A stretch of DNA of 21,883 bases, taken from the NCBI GenBank assembly GCA_016735355.1, contig JAERRQ010000231.1:1-21883 (forward strand), given 5' to 3'. Of this stretch, positions 1,160 through 20,365 are shown piece by piece. Under the pieces are notes generated by a model. That model ran no database searches. It had not been told where the DNA came from and saw nothing but the letters and a program-made list of their open reading frames with translations. This DNA comes from Desulfobacterales bacterium (GTDB lineage: Bacteria > Desulfobacterota > Desulfobacteria > Desulfobacterales > BuS5). Position 1 is the first letter of the stretch; the number at the start of each line of letters is the position of its first letter. A program made the position numbers and the translations under genes.

Positions 1160-1280
1160 TGTAGATTTTTTTATAAATTTCATTGCGTTATCGGTCGTCG
1201 GAGTGTTATAATACATTTTTTGTTTCTTCCTCTGACCTTGTGCAAAATTTTAAAATCAAGTAATTATCTGAAAATCTATA
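1160..1280 (+). repeat. MITE-like intergenic repeat, copy 1
   Basis: This is one of three diverged copies of a ~120-bp element. It begins TGTAGATTTTT and ends GAAAATCTATA, which are imperfect inverted repeats of each other. Shared internal blocks are TTTCATTGCGTTATCGGTC (1178-1196), CCTTGTGC near 1236 and AATTATCTGAAAATCTATA (1262-1280). Copies 2 and 3 are at 6410-6534 and, inverted, 8885-9003. This copy is the most eroded. It fills the first half of the rplC-rplD spacer, starting directly after the rplC stop codon. No obvious target duplication flanks it. Confidence 0.85.
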
Positions 1281-1311
1281 ATTTTTTTTTATTAACCGTG
1301 ATGGCTTAATG

Positions 1312-1360
1312 AAAAAGTTGTTTAAGAGCTATAGAAATATAATGATAAACAATTTTTTTT
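1312..1360 (+). terminator. Terminator-like hairpin with U-tract ahead of rplD
   Basis: The bases 1312-1324 (AAAAAGTTGTTTA) pair with 1346-1358 (TAAACAATTTTTT) over 13 positions, including one G-U pair, across a 21-base loop. The 3' arm runs into eight T's (1353-1360). The form is that of an intrinsic terminator, but the stem has only one G-C pair and the loop is long, so efficiency would be low. It ends 33 bases before the rplD ATG inside the operon, so an attenuator or an mRNA-end/processing structure is also possible. Confidence 0.4.
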
Positions 1361-1393
1361 GAATTCATCAACATTTATAGTTTGGTATTGCAA

Positions 1394-2017
1394 ATGGCTG
1401 TTGTGGATGTTTTAAATACAAAAGCGGAAAAAGTTTCAGAAATAGAACTGGCAGATGATATATTCGATATACCTGCCAAATCCCATGTTCTGCATGATGT
1501 AGTCAGGATGCAGTTGGCTTGCAGGCGCTCAGGAACTGCTTCAGTTAAACATCGTAGCGATGTAAAGGGAAGCAGAAGAAAATTATTCAGGCAAAAGGGC
1601 ACAGGAAGGGCGCGCAGAGGTGATATCAAATCTCCTCTCTTGCGTGGAGGAGGTTCTGTTTTTGGCCCTGATCCCAGGTCATACGCCTACTCGGTTCCTA
1701 AAAAGGTAAAAAAACTAGCCCTTAAGATGGCTCTAAGTAGCAAACTCAGGACTAATGAACTGGTTGTGCTGGATAATTTTGATTTAGAGAAGATCCGGAC
1801 AAAAAATTTTATAGGAATCATCAATCAATTGAATATAAAGAAAGCTTTGATTGTAACAGATAAAAAGAATGAAAAGCTTGAGCTTTCCTCAAGAAATGTT
1901 CCTAACATAAAAGTTATGAGATATGAGGGGCTTAATGTTTACGATATTCTCAAATATAATCATTTGGTGTTGTTGGAGTCATCCATTAAAAGCATCGAAG
2001 GGAGGTTTGTGGTATGA
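1394..2017 (+). CDS. rplD: 50S ribosomal protein L4
   Basis: L4 binds 23S rRNA domain I and its extended loop lines the narrow part of the exit tunnel. In E. coli it also represses its own S10 operon. The loop region is clear: [19 protein letters not shown], then [19 protein letters not shown] place the start at the ATG (1394, [13 protein letters not shown], 207 residues), in line with family length. A TTG four codons earlier (1382) is possible, but neither has a good ribosome site. It overlaps rplW by four bases (ATGA), which indicates translational coupling. Confidence 0.96.
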
Positions 2018-2301
2018 TTAAATATAGAATAATCAAGCGGCCTCTTGTTACTGAAAAAACAATGCTTCTGAAAGAAGAAGCAAACCAGTTTTCCTTTGAA
2101 GTAGACCGATCCGCCAACCGTATTGAAATCAGAAATGCTGTGGAAAAGATATTCAAGGTTAAGGTTGCTTCTGTTAATACTATTCAGGTAAAAGGCAAAA
2201 CCAAACAAAAAGGCAAAATAATCGGTAAGCGCAAGGATTGGAAAAAGGCTATTGTTCGATTATTGCCTGGTGAACGGATTGAATTTTTTGAAGGAGCTTA
2301 G
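2014..2301 (+). CDS. rplW: 50S ribosomal protein L23
   Basis: L23 sits at the mouth of the polypeptide exit tunnel and is the docking point for trigger factor and the signal recognition particle. The 95-residue protein has the N-terminal [12 protein letters not shown], the core [20 protein letters not shown] and [15 protein letters not shown], and the RRxG-type basic stretch ([16 protein letters not shown]). It lies in the usual place between L4 and L2. Its ATG overlaps the rplD stop, and a strong GGGAGG lies upstream inside rplD. Confidence 0.98.
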
Positions 2302-2318
2302 GAGTTTAAAGGTTTATA

Positions 2319-3146
2319 ATGGCTGTTAAAAGAGTAAAACCCACATCTCCCGGTCGCAGGTCCCAGACTTATTCTACTTTTGAAGAGATTACAACAACCA
2401 CCCCTGAAAAAAGTCTGTTGAAAATTATTAAAAAAACCGGTGGACGTAATGTAAATGGAAGGATTACAAGCAGGCATCGCGGCGGTGGTCATAAAAGGCG
2501 CTATAGGATAATTGATTTTAAGAGGAACAAAGTTGGTATTGCCGCAAAAGTTGCTACAATTGAATATGATCCGAACAGGTCTGCGAGAATAGCATTATTG
2601 CATTATGCTGATGGTGAAAAACGTTATATACTCGCCCCGCTTAATCTTTCTGTTGGAGATTCGGTTATATCATCAGTAGAAGCCGACATTAAACCTGGAA
2701 ATACTCTACCCTTAAAAAATATACCGTTAGGCACACACATTCATAATATTGAATTGACGATCGGCAAAGGGGGACAGATTGTCAGGAGTGCCGGTACATA
2801 TGCTCAGCTCATGGCGAAAGAAGATAGATATGCTCAAGTGAAATTACCTTCAGGTGAAGTCCGGATGGTTTTATTAAACTGTAATGCAACAATCGGCCAG
2901 CTGGGAAATGTAATACATGAAAATATTTCTTTGGGAAAGGCAGGCAGGAAGCGTTGGCTTGGGAGACGACCTAAAGTGCGTGGAGTCGCTATGAATCCGG
3001 TTGATCATCCCATGGGAGGCGGTGAAGGCCGTTCTTCAGGCGGGCGTCATCCTTGTACTCCATGGGGAATGCCTACCAAAGGGTATAAGACAAGGAACAA
3101 GAGGAAGAGCAACAAGTTTGTTGTTAAGAAAAGAACCAAAAAATAG
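2319..3146 (+). CDS. rplB: 50S ribosomal protein L2
   Basis: L2 is one of the most conserved ribosomal proteins, needed for subunit joining and peptidyl transferase activity. The 275-residue sequence contains [17 protein letters not shown], the OB and SH3-like barrels in the centre, and the C-terminal signature [13 protein letters not shown] followed by [19 protein letters not shown]. The position after VDHP is Met where E. coli has His; this position varies among phyla and the first His is retained. The gene starts 17 bases after rplW. Confidence 0.98.
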
Positions 3147-3193
3147 TATTTGATACTTATTGAAATATATTTATCATTTTTTCAGGAGTTTTT

Positions 3194-3475
3194 ATGCCGC
3201 GATCATTAAAAAAAGGTCCGTATGTTGATCCAAAGTTATTAAAAAAAATAACAACTGCTCAGGAGACTCGAAGTAATAGCGTTATAAAGACATGGGCAAG
3301 AAGGTCAACCATTATACCTGAGATGGTAGGATTTACTATGGCCGTTCATAACGGGAAAAAATTTGTTCCGGTCTTTGTTTCAGAAGATATGGTAGGTCAT
3401 AAACTCGGTGAATTTTCTCCGACACGTGTTTTTTATGGACATGCCGGGGATAGAAAATCTAGATTAAAGAAATAA
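3194..3475 (+). CDS. rpsS: 30S ribosomal protein S19
   Basis: S19 pairs with S13 in the head of the 30S subunit near the A-site tRNA. All 93 residues fit the family: [17 protein letters not shown], the conserved [29 protein letters not shown] and [12 protein letters not shown]. The ATG at 3194 follows a CAGGAG ribosome site. A 61-base spacer with a palindrome separates it from rplV. Confidence 0.98.
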
Positions 3476-3484
3476 TCAGCATTA

Positions 3485-3504
3485 ACAGATTTTCGAAAAT
3501 CTGT
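3485..3504. repeat. Perfect 20-bp palindrome between rpsS and rplV
   Basis: ACAGATTTTCGAAAATCTGT is its own reverse complement. As RNA it would form an 8-bp stem closed by a UCGA loop, 32 bases before the rplV ATG. There is no U-run directly after the stem, so I do not call it a terminator. It may be an mRNA structure or a chance palindrome. Confidence 0.5.
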
Positions 3505-3536
3505 ATAAATTTTGTATAAATAAGGAATTGCCGAAA

Positions 3537-3875
3537 ATGGAGTTTAGAGCAGTTGCAAAGTATGTGCGGATATCTTCAAGAAAAGTTCGTATGATAGTGG
3601 GAACTATTAAGGATAAGCCTGTTGAAGCCGGTCTGGATATCTTAAAATTTATGCCTCAAAAAGCGGCGGCCATAGTTGAAAAAACAATACGCAGTGCCGT
3701 TGCAAATGCTGACCAACATTCCGGGGTAGATATAGATGCATTGGTTATTCGAAATATTATTGCTGATCAGGGACCAACATTAAAACGATTCAGAGCCAGG
3801 GCACGCGGTAGGGGAACAAGAATTTTAAAACGTACCGCGCATATTACTGTTATATTATGTGATGATTTGGCATAA
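3537..3875 (+). CDS. rplV: 50S ribosomal protein L22
   Basis: L22 contacts all six 23S rRNA domains and its beta-hairpin lines the exit tunnel, where macrolide-resistance changes occur. From the ATG at 3537 the protein has 112 residues ([19 protein letters not shown]), matching the usual ~110. The tunnel hairpin is seen in [20 protein letters not shown], followed by [10 protein letters not shown]. An in-frame TTG at 3528 sits almost on top of the AAGGA ribosome site, whereas the ATG is about ten bases from it, so I prefer the ATG. Confidence 0.96.
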
Positions 3876-3890
3876 GGGAGGATAAAAAGC

Positions 3891-4526
3891 TTGGGCCAGA
3901 AAGTTAATCCTATAAGTTTGAGGCTGGGTGTAGTTAAGACTTGGGAGTCGAAATGGTATGCCGGTAAGAACTATTCTGATTATATTTTAGAAGATTTTAA
4001 TATCAGGAAGTTTCTTAAGAAAAAAAATTATCACGCAGGTGTTGCTAAAATTGAAATTGAGAGATCAAATAAGCGTGTCAGGTTAAGAATTTTTACTTCT
4101 AGACCGGGTATTATCATAGGAAAAAAAGGCTCTGAAATAGCTGCGTTAAAGAAAACGCTTGAAAAGATGATTTCTCAAGAAGTTTTTATTGATGTTCAGG
4201 AGGTACGAAAACCTGAGGTTGATGCTCAGCTTGTTGCAGAAAGTATTGCTCTTCAGATAGAACGTAGAGTAGCTTTTCGGCGTGCCATGAAACGTGGTAT
4301 TCAGTCTGCCATGCGATTTGGTGCTGAAGGTGTTAAAATTATATGCGCAGGTCGTTTGGGAGGTGCAGAGATGGCTCGGACGGAATGTTACAAAGAAGGA
4401 AGGGTCCCCCTGCATACCTTACGTGCGGATATTGATTACGGTTTTACGGAATCTCATACTACATATGGTGTAATTGGAGTTAAAGTTTTTATTTTTAAGG
4501 GTGAGATTTTAAAGAAAAACAAGTAA
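3891..4526 (+). CDS. rpsC: 30S ribosomal protein S3
   Basis: S3 forms part of the mRNA entry channel and helps unwind structured mRNA. The start is a TTG at 3891 ([13 protein letters not shown], the universal N-terminus) behind GGGAGG at 3876-3881, a good nine-base spacing. The type 2 KH domain shows the loop [12 protein letters not shown], and the C-terminal half has [12 protein letters not shown] and [20 protein letters not shown]. At 211 residues it lacks the longer tail of E. coli S3 but is typical of many other bacteria. Confidence 0.97.
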
Positions 4527-4622
4527 GGCTAACCGCGCAACTCAGGTATGAGATACATCGTTATTTTTTTGAATCTAAAAAATTATAGTTACGTATTATA
4601 GATATAATAGGAGTAATTTTAA

Positions 4623-5036
4623 ATGCTGAGTCCCAAGAAGATGAAATTCCGCAAGCACCAGAGAGGTAGAATGAAAGGTGTTGCACTCAGGGGTTGTAAT
4701 TTGAATTTTGGTGACTATGGACTGCAGGTAGTTGAGTGCGGAGCAATAAATGCGAGGCAGATAGAAGCAGCCCGTATAGCAATGACCAGGCATGTTAAGA
4801 GAGGTGGCAGAACCTGGATAAGAATTTTTCCGGATAAACCATATACAAAAAAACCGGCTGAAGTTAGAATGGGGAAAGGGAAGGGCGCTCCCGAAGGATG
4901 GCAAGCCATCGTTAAACCTGGAAGAATTCTTTATGAAATGGATGGTGTTCCCATAGAGCTTGCCAAGGAGGCTTTGCGCCTTGCGTCACACAAGCTTTCA
5001 GTGAAAACCAGGTTTGTTGCAAGGAGTTTATTGTAA
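4623..5036 (+). CDS. rplP: 50S ribosomal protein L16
   Basis: L16 sits near the central protuberance and helps position A-site tRNA and assemble the 50S subunit. The 137 residues start [17 protein letters not shown] and contain [21 protein letters not shown], split here into the landmark [12 protein letters not shown], then [14 protein letters not shown] and [12 protein letters not shown] 96-base AT-rich spacer precedes it, with GGAG about eight bases before the ATG. Its TAA shares a base with the rpmC ATG. Confidence 0.98.
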
Positions 5037-5239
5037 TGAAGACGGGTGAGATTAGAGAGCTAAGCATTGATGAGATGAATAACAAGCTCGTTAATTATGA
5101 GGAAGAATTGTTTAATCTTCGCTTTCAGCATGAAACCGACCAGCTTGAGAACACTCAATTAATGAAAAAGACAAAACGGAATATCGCCAGGGTCAAGACT
5201 GTAATAAGAGAAATGATCGACAACAAAGATATGGAATAG
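5036..5239 (+). CDS. rpmC: 50S ribosomal protein L29
   Basis: L29 is a small two-helix protein next to L23 at the tunnel exit. The 67 residues follow the family pattern: [13 protein letters not shown], the [10 protein letters not shown] block and the basic [16 protein letters not shown] helix. The start codon overlaps the rplP stop by one base (TAATG), and a GGAG site lies inside rplP, so translation is probably coupled. Confidence 0.97.
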
Positions 5240-5252
5240 AATAGTTGCTCTC

Positions 5253-5510
5253 ATGAAAAAAATTGGAATAAAAAGACAGGCTGTTGGAACTGTTGTTAGT
5301 GACAAGATGGATAAGACAGTTGTGGTAAATGTTGAGAGGCTTGTTAAACATAAACTTTATCATAAATATATAAAAAGGCGTTCAAAATTTGTTGCTCATG
5401 ACAAAGATAATGAATGCTGTTTTGGTGATAAGGTACTAATTATAGAATCAAAACCTATCAGCAAAACTAAGAAATGGGTTGTAAACAAGATACTTGACAG
5501 GGCTGTTTAA
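5253..5510 (+). CDS. rpsQ: 30S ribosomal protein S17
   Basis: S17 is an OB-fold primary binder of 16S rRNA needed for early 30S assembly. The 85 residues include [19 protein letters not shown] at the N-terminus, [17 protein letters not shown] and the loop [18 protein letters not shown], all family hallmarks. It starts 13 bases after rpmC; no strong ribosome site is visible, which suggests coupling to the upstream gene. It is followed by a 163-base spacer. Confidence 0.97.
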
Positions 5511-5673
5511 TCAGAAGGTGCCAAGTTTTAACATGTTTTTATTTGATATCTCCGGAATGTATAAAATTTAAACTTGGAGTAATTTATCTATTCACATGGT
5601 TTAAATTTTTTTCCCTTGATTTTGAACAAAATAGACTGATTGCGGGCGGCATTAGAAAAGGAAATACTTTATA

Positions 5674-6042
5674 ATGATACAGGCAGAAACAAGATTGACT
5701 GTAGCTGACAATTCAGGAGCTAAAGTTGTTTATTGTATAAAAGTCTTAGGCGGGTCAAGAAGAAGGTATGCTAGTGTTGGAGATATAATAGTTGTATCAA
5801 TAAAGGAAGCAATGCCAAATGCCAAAGCAAAAAAAGGTGACGTTCTTAAAGCGGTAGTAGTACGTACCAAGAAAGAGATTAAAAGGCCTGACGGATCATA
5901 TATAAGGTTTGATGATAATTCCGCAGTCTTAATAACCGCCAATCAAGAACCTTTAGGAACACGTATTTTCGGTCCGGTTGCAAGAGAGCTTCGGGCAAAA
6001 AAATTTATGAAAATTATTTCTCTTGCTCCTGAGGTTTTATAA
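5674..6042 (+). CDS. rplN: 50S ribosomal protein L14
   Basis: L14 lies on the subunit interface, contributes to an intersubunit bridge and is the target of the silencing factor RsfS. The 122-residue protein shows [17 protein letters not shown], the [13 protein letters not shown] strand, [25 protein letters not shown] (landmark [13 protein letters not shown]) and the ending [16 protein letters not shown] lies about 14 bases before the ATG. Confidence 0.98.
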
Positions 6043-6084
6043 AGCCGATATTTTTCCCTTGTATGATATTTTAAGAGGTTCTTT

Positions 6085-6414
6085 ATGGTTGCAAATAAAA
6101 TTCATTTAAAAAAAGATGATAAAGTTAAGATAATTGCCGGTAAGGATAGAGATAAGATCGGAAAAATTGTAAAGATTATCAGAAAAGACAGCCGGGTTAT
6201 TGTCGAGAACATTAACATAACAAAAAAACATTCCAAGCCAAGTGCAACTAACAGGCAGGGTGGCATAATAGAACAGGAAGCTCCGCTTCATTGGTCAAAC
6301 GTAATGTTGGTTTGTAATAAATGCCTTAAGGCAGTGCGTATTAAGAGGAAGCTTCTTGAAGACGGAAAAAAAGTTCGTCTCTGTAGCAAATGTAATGAAA
6401 TGATTGATGTATAG
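6085..6414 (+). CDS. rplX: 50S ribosomal protein L24
   Basis: L24 starts assembly of the 50S subunit by binding the 5' end of 23S rRNA. The KOW motif is in the first third ([20 protein letters not shown]), followed by the KKHSKPS and [16 protein letters not shown] blocks. The C-terminal half holds two Cys-X2-Cys pairs (CNKC and CSKC), a zinc-ribbon-like form absent from E. coli L24 but common elsewhere. Length is 109 residues. The TAG stop at 6412-6414 is part of the terminal repeat of the element that follows, so the last residue or two may have been set by that insertion. Confidence 0.97.
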
Positions 6415-6534
6415 ATTGTCACATAAATAGTTTCACTACGTTATCGGTCAAAACCTTCGGTCGACGTAATATCAGTACGTCTCCCTCAGGGGTTCTCCTT
6501 TATCCTTGTTAAATTAATTATTTGAAAATTTATA
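6410..6534 (+). repeat. MITE-like intergenic repeat, copy 2
   Basis: This 125-bp copy begins TATAGATTGTCACATAAATAG and ends TTTGAAAATTTATA. It shares with copies 1 and 3 the block TTTCACTACGTTATCGGTC (6431-6449), TATCCTTGTTAAA near 6501 and the AATTATTTGAAAATTTATA end. Its centre holds an inverted repeat GACGTA/TACGTC (about 6463-6481), in the same place as the GGCGTATT/AATACGCC hairpin of copy 3 but with a different sequence. It overlaps the rplX stop codon and ends 17 bases before the rplE ATG. Confidence 0.88.
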
Positions 6535-6551
6535 GTTTTCGGGGAAGATTA

Positions 6552-7091
6552 ATGTCACAGTTAAGAGAATATTACTGCAAAGTCGTTGTTCCTAAGATGA
6601 TGGAAACGTTTGATTATAAAAATATTATGCAGGTTCCCAAACTTGAAAAGGTTGTTATAAACATGGGGCTAGGGGAAGCGATAAATAATAATAAACTTCT
6701 TGATTCCGGAGTAGCTGAATTGAAAGTGATTTCAGGTCAGCAGCCTGTTATAACACGAGCGAAAAAGTCGATTGCTGCTTTTAAACTCAGAGAAGGTATG
6801 CCCATTGGATGTATGGTAACGCTTCGTCATAAACGTATGTTTGATTTCTATAACAGGCTTGTGAATATAGCACTTGCCCGTGTACGTGATTTTAGAGGCC
6901 TTTCAGGTAAGGCTTTTGATGGACATGGTAATTATTCCCTTGGGATAAAGGAACAGATAATTTTTCCGGAAATTGACTTTGACGCTATAGATAAGATTAA
7001 AGGGTTCAATATTACTGTTGTGAATACCGCAAAAAATGATAGAGAAGGGAAAGAGCTTCTTAAACTTTTAGGTATGCCGTTTAGAAACTAA
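6552..7091 (+). CDS. rplE: 50S ribosomal protein L5
   Basis: L5 binds 5S rRNA in the central protuberance and touches P-site tRNA. I choose the ATG at 6552, ten codons into the open frame, because it follows GGGGAAG at 6541-6547 and gives 179 residues, the family length. The upstream extension would lie in the end of the repeat element. Family motifs include [48 protein letters not shown] and the C-terminal [16 protein letters not shown]. Confidence 0.97.
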
Positions 7092-7127
7092 TCTATATAT
7101 GCATTCCTTGTGGAACAAATTTGGAGC

Positions 7128-7164
7128 ATTGCTGATTTAGTAATTTTTTTTCTAAATCAGCAAT
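7128..7164 (+). promoter_or_regulatory. Perfect 13-bp hairpin just before the rpsN ribosome site
   Basis: ATTGCTGATTTAG (7128-7140) is exactly complementary to CTAAATCAGCAAT (7152-7164) across an 11-base T-rich loop. The stem ends four bases before the AAGGAGG ribosome site of rpsN (7169-7175). There is no U-run after the stem; the T's are in the loop. That argues against a terminator and fits an mRNA structure affecting rpsN translation, transcript processing or a protein-binding site. The assignment is inference from the structure alone. Confidence 0.6.
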
Positions 7165-7180
7165 TTATAAGGAGGAAGAT

Positions 7181-7366
7181 TTGGCAAAAAAAGCTCTTAG
7201 AATTAAAGCTATGCGACAACCGAAGTTTAAAGTAAGAGCATATAATAGATGCCCTATTTGCGGAAGGCCAAGGGCGTTTATAAGAAAGTTCGGTATTTGC
7301 CGTATTTGTTTTAGGAATCTTGCATCTCAGGGTAAACTTCCAGGCGTTACTAAGTCAAGCTGGTAA
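7181..7366 (+). CDS. rpsN: 30S ribosomal protein S14, zinc-binding type Z
   Basis: S14 helps assemble the 30S head. This is the short, 61-residue zinc form (also called rpsZ) with cysteines C24, C27, C40 and C43 in a CX2CX12CX2C ribbon (CPICGRPR and CRICFRNLA), rather than the ~100-residue cysteine-free form of E. coli. Translation starts at a TTG at 7181, five bases after a consensus AAGGAGG. It has the normal position between L5 and S8 and is preceded by a perfect 13-bp hairpin. Confidence 0.97.
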
Positions 7367-7494
7367 AATTAGCCATTTATAGCTTTTGTTCTGAAATTTA
7401 TAATATTTTGGCATCATGCAATGATCTGGGTTTTATCTATGATTTGGCGGGTATGCCTAAATAATATGTTAATTTTTTTTTAACGGAGAGTAGA

Positions 7495-7893
7495 ATGTCA
7501 ATTAGTGATCCCATTGCGGATATGCTGACTCGAATCAGGAATGCGGTTAAGGCAAAATTTGCAAAAGTAGATATACCCGGCTCAAAAATAAAGATTGAAA
7601 TTGCTAACGTACTAAAAACTGAAGGTTTTATACAAAATTTCAAATTTATTGATGACAACAAGCAAGGTATCCTGCGTTTATATCTTAAGTACGGAGAGGG
7701 TCGTTCAGATGTTATTTTGGGAATTAAGCGTATAAGTAAACCTAGCAGAAGGGTTTATGCTAGAGCAAAGGATATAAAACCGGTTTTAAGTGGTATGGGT
7801 ATTTCTATTTTTTCTACCTCTTGCGGCGTAATGACCGATAAAAGAGCGAGAAAAGAAAATTTAGGCGGTGAAATTCTCTGTAACGTTTGGTAG
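7495..7893 (+). CDS. rpsH: 30S ribosomal protein S8
   Basis: S8 binds the central domain of 16S rRNA and in E. coli represses the spc operon by binding mRNA near the start of L5. The 132 residues start [21 protein letters not shown] and contain [34 protein letters not shown] and the C-terminal [20 protein letters not shown] region (landmarks STSCGVMTD and [10 protein letters not shown]). A CGGAGAG site lies five bases before the ATG. A 128-base AT-rich spacer precedes it. Confidence 0.98.
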
Positions 7894-7911
7894 TCATTGG
7901 GAGTAAAGCGA

Positions 7912-8451
7912 ATGTCACGTGTAGGAAAAAAAACGATTTGTATTCCAAGTAGTGTTAAAGTCACTTATTCTGAACATTTGTTGAATGTGAAGGGCGAAAA
8001 AGGTGTGCTTACAAGGTTGGTTCATCCTGACATTGATCTGAATATTGAAAATCAGAATATCAATGTAACTGTGAAAAAGGATGATAGGGTTAGCAGAGCT
8101 TTACAGGGCCTCACCAGAAGTCTGGTTTCCAATATGGTAATTGGAGTTGATAAGGGGTTTGAACGTGTACTTCAAATAAACGGTATAGGTTATCGCGCTA
8201 CAATTAAAGGACAGACCATAACATTTAATCTTGGATATTCAACTCCTGTTCTTTTTGATCTTCAGGAAGGTGTTTCGGCAACTGTGGACAAGAATAATAC
8301 TATCAAGCTTTCCGGCATTGATAAAGAGCAACTTGGTCAGGTCGCTGCAGCAATAAGAAAGTTGAGACCGCCTGAACCTTATAAAGGCAAAGGTATTAAA
8401 TATGCTGAAGAGCATATTAAAAGAAAAGCCGGCAAGACCGGAGTTAAATAA
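7912..8451 (+). CDS. rplF: 50S ribosomal protein L6
   Basis: L6 binds near the sarcin-ricin loop, where translation factors dock. I start it at ATG 7912 (MSRVGKKTICIPSSVKV, 179 residues), with GGGAG about eight bases upstream. A TTG five codons earlier overlaps that site and is less likely. The duplicated L6 fold is visible, with GVDKGFERVLQINGIGYRA in the centre and the C-terminal signature RPPEPYKGKGIKYAEEHIKRKAGK, of which KLRPPEPYKGKGI is diagnostic. Confidence 0.97.
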   Translation: MSRVGKKTICIPSSVKVTYSEHLLNVKGEKGVLTRLVHPDIDLNIENQNINVTVKKDDRVSRALQGLTRSLVSNMVIGVDKGFERVLQINGIGYRATIKGQTITFNLGYSTPVLFDLQEGVSATVDKNNTIKLSGIDKEQLGQVAAAIRKLRPPEPYKGKGIKYAEEHIKRKAGKTGVK

Positions 8452-8476
8452 AAATTTTTCTGAAGGGAAGTTTTAA

Positions 8477-8845
8477 ATGGGTTCGCTGGATTTAAAAAAA
8501 CAGGCGCGTTTGAAAAGAAAAAAGAGAGTTCGTAAGAAATTGACAGGAACATCGGAGCGGCCAAGGTTAACTGTATTTCGTAGTGCAAAACATATATATG
8601 CACAGGTTGTTGATGATACATCCGGTCACACGCTTGTTGCTGCTTCAAGTCTTGAGCCGGCCACTAAAGAACAACCTCAATTTGAAAGCAAAGTGGCGGT
8701 TGCTAATTATGTCGGCAAACTTTTGGGCGGACGAGCAATTGAAAAAGGAGTAACAAAAGTTGTTTTCGATCGTAATGGTTTTTTATATCATGGTCGAGTT
8801 AAAGCAGTATCTGAAGGAGCACGTGAAGCTGGTTTGGTTTTTTAG
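8477..8845 (+). CDS. rplR: 50S ribosomal protein L18
   Basis: L18 binds 5S rRNA with L5 and carries it into the central protuberance. The 122-residue protein has a basic N-terminus ([20 protein letters not shown]), then [30 protein letters not shown] and the C-terminal [23 protein letters not shown] block (landmark [12 protein letters not shown]). GAAGGGA lies about eight bases before the ATG. It is followed by a 189-base spacer that contains an inverted repeat element. Confidence 0.98.
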
Positions 8846-8884
8846 GGTATTGTTTTGCCTGTTTTTTATAATTAGGGCTATAAA

Positions 8885-9003
8885 TATAGATTGTCAGATA
8901 ATTACTTCATTTGAAAACTTGGCACAAGGATAGAGGGCGGAAGGCGTATTGGAATACGCCGATGACCGATAACGCAGTGAAATTATGTATGTGGCAATCT
9001 ATA
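8885..9003 (-). repeat. MITE-like intergenic repeat, copy 3 (inverted)
   Basis: This 119-bp copy runs opposite to copies 1 and 2. Its terminal inverted repeats are TATAGATTGTCA (8885-8896) and TGGCAATCTATA (8992-9003), 11 of 12 matching. Inside is a perfect GGCGTATT-GG-AATACGCC hairpin (8943-8960). The bases directly outside, GGGCTATAAA (8875-8884) and GGACTATAAA (9004-9013), match at 9 of 10 positions, as expected of a target-site duplication. It lies in the rplR-rpsE spacer and leaves the rpsE ribosome site intact. Confidence 0.9.
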
Positions 9004-9034
9004 GGACTATAAATAGGACTAAGGAGGAAAGCCC

Positions 9035-9529
9035 TTGTACAAAGAAGATACAGTAGAAAATCAATTAATTGATAAAGTCGTGTATATCAATCGCGTGGCG
9101 AAAGTAGTAAAAGGTGGCCGGAGATTCAGCTTTAGTGCTATTGTTGTAGTTGGAGATGGTGATGGTGCTATCGGTTATGGACTTGGTAAGGCCGGAGAAG
9201 TTCCCGTTGCTATTCGCAAGGGTATAGAAAAAGCAAAGAAAAATATGGTTAAAGTTTCCTTGAATAAAGGAACCATTCCTTTTGAAGTTATAGGAAAGTA
9301 TGGGGCTGGCAGAGTTTTTTTAAAACCAGCATCAGAGGGTACCGGTGTTATAGCAGGAGGTGCTGTGCGTGCGGTTCTCGAAGCTGCCGGAGTTCAGAAT
9401 ATTCTTACAAAGTGTATGGGCTCTCATAATCCCCATAACCTGGTAAAAGCTACTATTGAAGGGCTTACACAGCTTCAGAGTCGAGCGCAGGTTGCGGCAA
9501 GACGTGGTATAGATGTTAATAGTCTGTGA
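9035..9529 (+). CDS. rpsE: 30S ribosomal protein S5
   Basis: S5 sits at the mRNA entry and affects decoding accuracy. The 164-residue protein starts at a TTG (9035) seven bases after AAGGAGG (9021-9027). The double-stranded-RNA-binding half has [19 protein letters not shown] and [21 protein letters not shown] (landmark [14 protein letters not shown]). The C-terminal half has [28 protein letters not shown], of which [13 protein letters not shown] is diagnostic, and [13 protein letters not shown]. It is preceded by the inverted repeat element. Confidence 0.97.
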
Positions 9530-14631: not shown

Positions 14632-15095
14632 GACATAGAAAAGCTGTTTTGAAATTAAATAGAACAAGCAGCCATAGAAAGGCTATGTTCAGAAATATGG
14701 TAACCTCTCTGTTTAAGCATCAGAGTATCCGTACTACTGATGTTAAAGCAAAGGAAGTGAGACGGTGGGCAGATAAATTGATTACTCTGGCTAAACGTGG
14801 AGATCTCCATGCCAGGCGTCAGGCTCTTTCGATTATAAGAGAAAAGGGTGTTGTTCATGAGCTTTTTGCCGTTGCTCGTGAACGTTATGGCGCTATATCC
14901 GGTGGTTATACCAGAATTACTAAATTAGGCAGACGTTCCGGTGATGCGGCACCTGTTTCTATTATTGAATTATTAGGATCCGATACTAAGAAAAAAGATA
15001 CCAAGAAAAAAGATACCAAGAAAAAAGATACTAAGAAAATAGACATCGAAATTGAAACTGAGAAGGAAAAAGCTGGGGTAGCATCAAACGGATAG
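14628..15095 (+). CDS. rplQ: 50S ribosomal protein L17 with a lysine-rich repeat tail
   Basis: L17 lies near the tunnel exit. The core matches the family: [56 protein letters not shown] (landmark [24 protein letters not shown] shortened to [14 protein letters not shown]), and [25 protein letters not shown]. The core ends near residue 117. A 38-residue charged tail follows, with four DTKKK-type repeats, giving 155 residues against 127 in E. coli. It is the last gene of the cluster, translationally coupled to rpoA and followed by an intrinsic terminator. Confidence 0.97.
14982..15041 (+). repeat. Four 15-bp tandem repeats inside rplQ
   Basis: The unit GATACTAAGAAAAAA, with C/T variation at its sixth base and a changed end in the last unit, is repeated four times in frame and encodes Asp-Thr-Lys-Lys-Lys (the last is DTKKI). 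Units start at 14982, 14997, 15012 and 15027. The length is a multiple of three, so copy-number change by slippage would keep the frame. Confidence 0.95.
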
Positions 15096-15216: not shown

Positions 15217-15433
15217 TGTAACCGTTCACGGTTTACAGTTATCAGTTTACGGTTGAAAAAACCAAAAATTTTGGAATTTATAGCTAAAATGTTTCAATCT
15301 GGATTCCCATGCAAAACTTGGGAACCTTTTACGCAGAGCCTTGTAAAAGCAAACTTTTGATTCCCTGTTTAAAATTCGAGTTTTGCTATGTTTTTAACCG
15401 TTAACTGTAAACCGACAACCGTGAACGGTTACA
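15217..15433. mobile_element. 217-bp non-coding element with 38-bp terminal inverted repeats
   Basis: The left end (15217-15254) and right end (15396-15433) are inverted repeats of 38 bases: the outer 17, TGTAACCGTTCACGGTT, are perfect and the inner 21 match at 16 positions. CTTTTT lies directly outside both ends (15211-15216 and 15434-15439), a candidate 6-bp target duplication, though it is low complexity. The interior has no convincing gene and contains the loose TTCCCA palindrome at 15304-15324. It fits a MITE or REP-composite (BIME-like) element. The right boundary is next to the stop codon of the GGDEF gene. The rest of the 15149-15439 spacer holds only the REP-like palindrome. Confidence 0.7.
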
Positions 15434-15439
15434 CTTTTT

Positions 15440-20325: not shown

Positions 20326-20365
20326 ACACAGATGCACACAGATAAACACAGATAAACACAGATAA
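20326..20365 (+). repeat. 4 x 10-bp tandem repeat (ACACAGATAA)
   Basis: The unit ACACAGATAA occurs three times in a row (20336-20365), preceded by one variant ACACAGATGC (20326-20335). It lies in the 368-base region between the divergent sdhC and beta-helix genes, just before the candidate plus-strand promoter. Apart from this repeat and the two candidate promoters I see nothing else in that region. Whether it is a protein-binding array or a dispersed repeat cannot be told from here. Confidence 0.85.

Follow-up and report, generated by a model that had tools for sequence, protein, structure and literature searches.

Introduction

Few gene blocks of bacteria are as conserved or as highly expressed as the S10-spc operon, yet in the lineages examined a single family of short repeats occupies eleven of the spacers of the S10-spc-alpha region. 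How such repeats come to stand between ribosomal-protein genes is the question raised by the DNA analyzed here, termed the window: 21,883 nucleotides from a Desulfobacterales bacterium (assembly GCA_016735355.1, contig JAERRQ010000231.1, positions 1 to 21,883 of the forward strand). Three repeats lie in its operon, in the rplC-rplD spacer (copy 1, 1160..1280, forward strand), the rplX-rplE spacer (copy 2, 6410..6534, forward strand), and the rplR-rpsE spacer (copy 3, 8885..9003, reverse strand). It is very probable that they are non-autonomous miniature inverted-repeat transposable elements (MITEs), moved in trans by an IS630 transposase, and that they are mainly neutral passengers of the operon.

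The Repeat Family and Its Copies in the Operon

The host genome (G000) is an assembly of 2.2 Mb in 411 contigs and is 83% complete. Its nearest relative among the genomes examined, G049, belongs to the same genus, comprises 4.2 Mb in 2 contigs at 97% completeness, and is mostly 94–97% identical to the window over the operon. A third member of the genus, G098, is 76–84% identical over the operon. Together with G133, these are the examined members of the host genus or family, and all but G049 are incomplete assemblies, with a fragmentation to which such repeats probably contribute.

The preliminary description of the window had proposed a search for dispersed copies, and these were found. With copy 3 as the query, the host genome gave 105 candidates, and all 40 that were scored match at E ≤ 1e-3. 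The end pattern TATAGAYNGTCANATAA, with at most one mismatch, occurs 88 times in this genome compared to 0 times for a reversed-pattern control, which excludes chance; in G049, a slightly looser pattern found 409 ends compared to 4 for the control. Alignment of 32 copies yields a 119-bp consensus that starts with TATAGATTGTCACATAAATAATTTCACTGCGTTATCGGTC and ends with TAATTATCTGACAATCTATA, while element sizes are mostly 105–108, 119, or 125 bp. The element is an imperfect palindrome with terminal inverted repeats, TAGATTGTCA...TGACAATCTA. Placement was sampled in a 400-kb stretch of G049 by simple open reading frame calling. Of 25 elements or fragments found there, 23 have their midpoints outside called genes, though 85% of the stretch was called coding, and three overlap the end of a called gene by five bases, the TAG of TATAG serving as the stop codon as it does in copy 2. 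The elements are a high-copy MITE family of about 105–130 bases and are mostly intergenic.

The three window copies had been described as one family without coding capacity. Their coordinates are confirmed by alignment, and no gene of their own was found in them, but the shared arms join two subfamilies rather than one. Copies 1 and 3 belong to the 119-bp subfamily, as judged from alignment to the family consensus and comparison with congeners. Copy 3 is near-intact, with 90% identity to the consensus over 119 bp. Copy 1 is eroded: its first 19 bp can no longer be aligned, and the remainder is 84% identical to consensus positions 20–119. Copy 2 is of a 125-bp subfamily, which has the arms of the 119-bp type and a different center; its match to the 119-bp consensus is confined to its first 40 bp, its best other match in the host genome has 82% identity, and roughly ten more places match most of its length. 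Since copy 2 belongs to a separate subfamily, no single consensus can serve to rank the three copies by age. The copies had also been placed precisely within spacers, with ribosome sites spared. The ribosome sites beside all three are indeed intact, but the first five bases of copy 2 overlap the end of rplX. This left end (TATAG) provides the rplX stop codon, TAG (6412..6414, forward strand), whereas the stop is TAA in both G049 and G098.

Empty Sites and Target-Site Duplication

Empty sites show that the family is mobile. The flanks of 21 host copies were traced in G049, where 11 of the sites are empty (L003, L006, L007, L014, L017, L020, L021, L022, L023, L026, and L027), 4 are filled or partly filled (L002, L024, L030, and L010, the last with element positions 1–49 only), and 6 are undecided (L004, L005, L008, L015, L018, and L028). 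In G049, the L030 site holds a 1.8-kb insert, which was considered as a possible parent of the family and rejected, being an unrelated insertion sequence (IS) inside the element; it has a transposase-like frame of about 460 codons and is inserted in an arm of the element copy (L204, G049:C1:3559800-3562300).

Junctions were scored with 0, 2, or 4 duplicated bases at the 11 empty sites and at the rpsZ-rpsH sites of two filled and empty pairs (G049 and the window, G290 and G150). Duplication of TA scores best at 11 of these 13 sites, clearly at 9 and marginally at 2 (L017 and L020, where the margin is small enough to come from the two added letters alone). Of the exceptions, L014 ties TA with TATA, and L006 is uninformative. 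This means that the unit is TAGATTGTCA...TGACAATCTA, inserted at TA. By extension from the other sites, the duplicated TA of copy 3 would lie at 8885..8886 on the left and 9002..9003 on the right.

Presence and absence also vary within the operon itself. The rplC-rplD copy is common to the window and G049, which retains its last 36 bp only. The rplX-rplE copy is likewise common to both and is missing in G098. At rplR-rpsE, the window has a full copy, G049 retains 28 bp of it, and G098 has none. While G098 is without all three window copies, it has one of its own at rpsE-rpmD. Conversely, G049 has a 106-bp element at rpsZ-rpsH and a reversed 125-type element at rpsC-rplP, and the window is empty at both places, with the corresponding targets at 7378..7379 (a TA) and 4597..4600. 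Empty orthologous sites had been named in advance as a sign of mobility, and spacers conserved by descent across the order as a sign of the opposite; the former are seen both in the operon and beyond it, and the latter does not apply, as occupancy differs among three congeners.

The Probable Source Transposase

Sequence comparison suggests that an IS630 transposon is the likely source of the MITEs. Among 20 searched genomes, 9 have a match to the IS630-type domain DDE_3 at E ≤ 1e-6. Fifty DDE_3 loci from these nine genomes (30 plus a later 20, of which four are places seen twice) were searched for either MITE arm with at most 5 of 26 positions differing. Six MITE-like arms were found, all in one relative, G093, and all six at the ends of IS630 genes; shuffles of the 20 later loci gave no arm matches. 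Five of the arms lie directly past an IS630 stop codon (L222, L301, two in L297, and L309). The sixth, in L234, matches at 24 of 26 positions and stands 107 bp before a start codon. The first 26 residues of the gene that begins there are 81% identical to the start of the L301 gene, and the gene resumes in L222 beyond an inserted second IS630 and runs to the right end, its pieces being 76% and 80% identical to L301. On contig C10 of G093, one interrupted IS630 gene is therefore flanked by MITE ends, located at 87670 and 90251, and four further IS630 genes of G093 have a MITE-like end on their 3′ side. Of the five right ends, three are similar to the left arm of the MITE (22–23 of 26 positions) and the other two to its right arm (23 of 26). 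The NCBIfam IS630 model matches each half of the L301 gene, with scores below the whole-protein cut-off, and the halves also match Pfam DDE_3 or helix-turn-helix models. As an observation on the C10 locus (L234 and L222), the interruption is an IS630 inserted in another IS630 gene; the genome has 22 DDE_3 matches, several of them with internal stops.

A comparable arrangement is found in G273, where a three-copy IS630 has ends TATACATAGCGACATAAATAATTGCG and TATACACAGCGTCTTAAATAATTGCG. These are less MITE-like and have the same layout, with TATA-ended repeats and the motif TAAATAATT at equal distance (16 and 13 of 22 positions match). The parent transposase with the same ends that the preliminary description called for is thus found in a relative, though none was detected in the host genus.

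Several observations weigh against the explanation by IS630-moved passengers. Likeness between the IS630 relics of G093 and the MITE is confined to the terminal ~26 bp, and the genes of these relics all look broken. The inner block of the MITE was not seen in the IS630 ends examined, which means that the MITE did not arise from those IS630 by simple internal deletion. No DDE_3 match at E ≤ 1e-6 was found in G000, G049, G098, or G133, which except for G049 are incomplete metagenome-assembled genomes (MAGs), so that no gene seen there accounts for recent movement in these genomes. Finally, the rpsZ-rpsH copy of another genus, g108, exceeds the identity of third codon positions (82–93%) in 10 of 10 species pairs, and this greater conservation is not predicted for a pure passenger.

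A transposase of some other family could have moved the MITEs, in which case the likeness of the G093 ends would reflect shared ancestry or coincidence. This is unlikely. The lack of a detected IS630 gene in the host genus would fit it, transposases of other families also use TA targets, and PF01609 transposases are plentiful in G049, with 68 matches compared to one in the host genome. However, the PF01609 element present in about 40 copies in G049 has other ends (read in 12 loci) and was rejected as the parent, the arms in DDE_3 loci are without exception at IS630 gene ends, and the repeats of the G273 IS630 place TAAATAATT at the same distance from TATA ends. The PF01609 element itself (for example, L255) is a set of near-identical insertion sequences with a 390-codon frame and ends TCAGTAGTGTCCGGTT. 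Eight long end pairs in the examined loci were also considered as parents and rejected: four were read and by eye are host genes, three belong to the ribosomal operon, and one spans 315 bp.

With IS630 as the source, the transposase would have moved the MITEs in trans, each inserting at TA and duplicating it, and the host genus would since have lost the gene, unless it was overlooked there. The orphan repeats, numbering hundreds per genome, would thereby be tied to a source seemingly lost from the genus that carries them.

Passengers or Adopted Elements

The elements fold far more strongly than their shuffles, with a mean z of −5.9 on the element strand and −6.6 on the reverse strand (60 of 141 elements); folded on the operon strand, the window copies have z values of −1.7, −3.3, and −3.9. 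Co-transcription with the operon would give a long hairpin in the mRNA whichever way the element is oriented. Correia/NEMIS hairpins have been reported as RNase III substrates, and by analogy the present hairpins probably are as well. Between positions 1100 and 9100, there are 25 predicted promoters compared to 24.1 in shuffles, with two minus-strand predictions overlapping copies 1 and 3. For terminator-like sites, the count is 13 compared to 5.0 in shuffles, and none lies within an element. Passengers would be tolerated in the operon because they stand in spacers, spare the ribosome sites, and contain no terminator-like site.

In the window's genus, the shared operon copies decay. Copies 1 and 3 have mostly been deleted in G049, and the rplX-rplE copy is identical between the window and G049 at 97 of 115 positions, compared to 1149 of 1268 at third codon positions. 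Of the two options first proposed, neutral passenger or adopted element, this decay fits the former better, and adoption may apply to one copy of genus g108.

That copy, in the rpsZ-rpsH spacer, is present in 5 of 7 species and absent from 2 (G150 and G284). In all ten pairs of filled species, 100–106 of 106 aligned columns are identical. Between G266 and G186, the copy is identical at 106 of 106 positions, while rplE, rpsZ, and rpsH have 84% identity at third positions and other spacers range from 63 of 125 to 27 of 29 (50–93%). The remainder of the rpsZ-rpsH stretch is likewise conserved, at 89–97% (95 of 101 for G266 and G186). Moreover, G150 is empty at this site, yet its rpsZ and rpsH are nearest to those of the filled species G186 (97–98% at third positions). 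Taken together, these comparisons suggest exchange of alleles at this spacer no less than constraint. The copy in G272 is split by another insert and, at 104 of 106 positions identical to G186, is no more diverged than the others. The insert itself (L276, about 8982–9085) is a 104-bp palindromic repeat with TATAG ends, nested near the center of the element.

From this pattern, a bolder proposal may be drawn, although it is rather unlikely: that an IS630-borne MITE superfamily of Desulfobacterales uses S10-spc as a recurrent landing zone, and that the g108 rpsZ-rpsH copy is a domesticated intercistronic hairpin, kept by purifying selection and recombined between species. If this were true, the rewiring of a ribosomal-protein operon by a transposon would be observable in progress. 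In any case, filled and empty alleles in close species are natural pairs in which the cost or role of a ribosomal-spacer hairpin can be tested.

It is quite unlikely that the S10-spc operon has adopted the copies as fixed elements for mRNA processing or attenuation. Hairpins that are strong on both strands and the retention of the g108 copy, identical between G266 and G186 well above their third positions, are what such a role would lead one to expect. In the window's genus, however, copies have either lost parts of their sequence or changed more quickly than third codon positions, and G098 does without all three. Within g108, two species are empty, one of them being nearest to a filled species in the flanking genes, which suggests allele exchange; the rest of the stretch is conserved as well; and splitting the G272 copy has not made it more diverged. 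In addition, Rfam gives 0 matches at the gathering threshold over the window and 0 at E ≤ 1 for positions 6380–9040. The preferred explanation of the window copies is that of mainly neutral passengers.

Variation of Centers and Ends

The centers between the shared arms differ across genomes and are largely self-complementary. Even orthologous copies, at the L002 (L206) and L030 (L204) sites, have different central hairpins in G000 and G049, and the simplest guess is that such replacement in place occurs by gene conversion between copies. The two ends co-vary. At end positions 7–9, they match in a fraction of 0.73, compared to 0.47 with ends shuffled (141 elements), and across 21 copies double changes occur in 5 of 27 predicted pairs, three of these in the ends. 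Kinship among copies can yield part of this co-variation.

Although the co-varying ends, and a block, TTTCACTGCGTTATCGGTC, that is exact in many genera while central hairpins vary, could be expected of a repeat that acts as a structured non-coding RNA or binds protein and spreads by recombination instead of transposition, this is highly improbable given the clean empty sites with TA duplication, the occurrence of hundreds of copies in a species with congeners that have none, and the same ends flanking IS630 genes.

Distribution Across Genomes and Recurrence in the Operon

The family is patchy over the order, with genomes rich in copies alongside close relatives that lack them. A consensus search matches 58 of 291 genomes of the order at E ≤ 1e-6, and 52 of 291 contain the block TTTCACTGCGTTATCGGTC with at most one mismatch (one control match). 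In genus g43, G218 has 255 copies of the block, while 11 of 18 genomes have none. In a phylum sample, 10 of 395 genomes match (one control match), five in the order, including the host, and five outside it. Three of the latter have a single match, which may be chance, and two, of genus g284, have 30 and 9. Among at least 108 stretches matched, named records are mostly MAGs of Desulfobacterales, Desulfobacteraceae, or "Deltaproteobacteria"; among the matches listed, one record each bears the name Prolixibacter, Hyphomicrobiales, and Desulfuromonas, which may reflect chance or misbinning. Searches of plasmids, phages, and viral contigs, one of them with a single exact 21-mer, gave no match to the family.

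The operon was surveyed in 19 genomes, namely those of the window, G049, G098, and 16 of 20 others picked as family carriers. Four of the picked carriers were left out, as no rplE was found, and some operon contigs are partial. An element or remnant lies inside the S10-spc-alpha region in 11 of these 19 genomes, most of which were picked as carriers. The occupied spacers are rpsJ-rplC, rplC-rplD, rplB-rpsS, rpsC-rplP, rplN-rplX, rplX-rplE, rpsZ-rpsH, rplR-rpsE, rpsE-rpmD, infA-rpsM, and rpsD-rpoA, which amounts to about 17 insertions as judged by spacer, orientation, subtype, and genus alone. The strict block is found 8 times in the operons of the 19 genomes compared to 3.1 expected (P = 0.014), in a sample biased because the window was picked for having copies and the others for carrying the family. 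Without the window, the numbers are 5 and 2.8, and for these reasons enrichment in the operon is not established.

Relation to Known Elements

In its behavior, this MITE family with IS630-type ends is probably closest to the Correia/NEMIS and ERIC elements. The Correia elements of Neisseria (CREE, NEMIS) have TATAG...CTATA ends, a length of about 105–155 bp, TA duplication, intergenic placement, hundreds of copies, and a long hairpin once co-transcribed; TATAG ends with TA duplication are found here as well. They differ in phylum and probably in the sequence past TATAG, and the present family has a variable central hairpin. The promoter prediction above does not suggest promoter activity of the present elements. 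The ERIC (IRU) elements of enterobacteria are imperfect palindromes of about 127 bp with TA duplication, found in transcribed spacers, and they differ in host range and probably in sequence. The MITEs of the IS630 family (Tc1/mariner superfamily) also duplicate TA, and the present ends are common with IS630 genes of G093. Here, however, only the terminal ~26 bp are shared, and the host genus has no detected IS630 gene.

Other Repeats in the Window

Several other repeats were observed in the window. A 220-bp insert downstream of rplQ (15217–15436) has long imperfect inverted ends and is absent from G049. Related pieces occur in other loci, one of which is 94% identical over 143 bp (L012), and this insert is a second MITE-like family. 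Compared to G049, the rpsQ-rplN spacer has about 110 bp more (5531–5644), and its sequence has no match among the examined loci at E ≤ 1e-3. A short tandem array of ACACAGATAA-like units lies at 20326–20365, and similar stretches are found in several other loci. Finally, a 15-bp tandem repeat in the 3′ coding region of rplQ (14982–15056) gives rise to a tail rich in Lys, Asp, and Thr.

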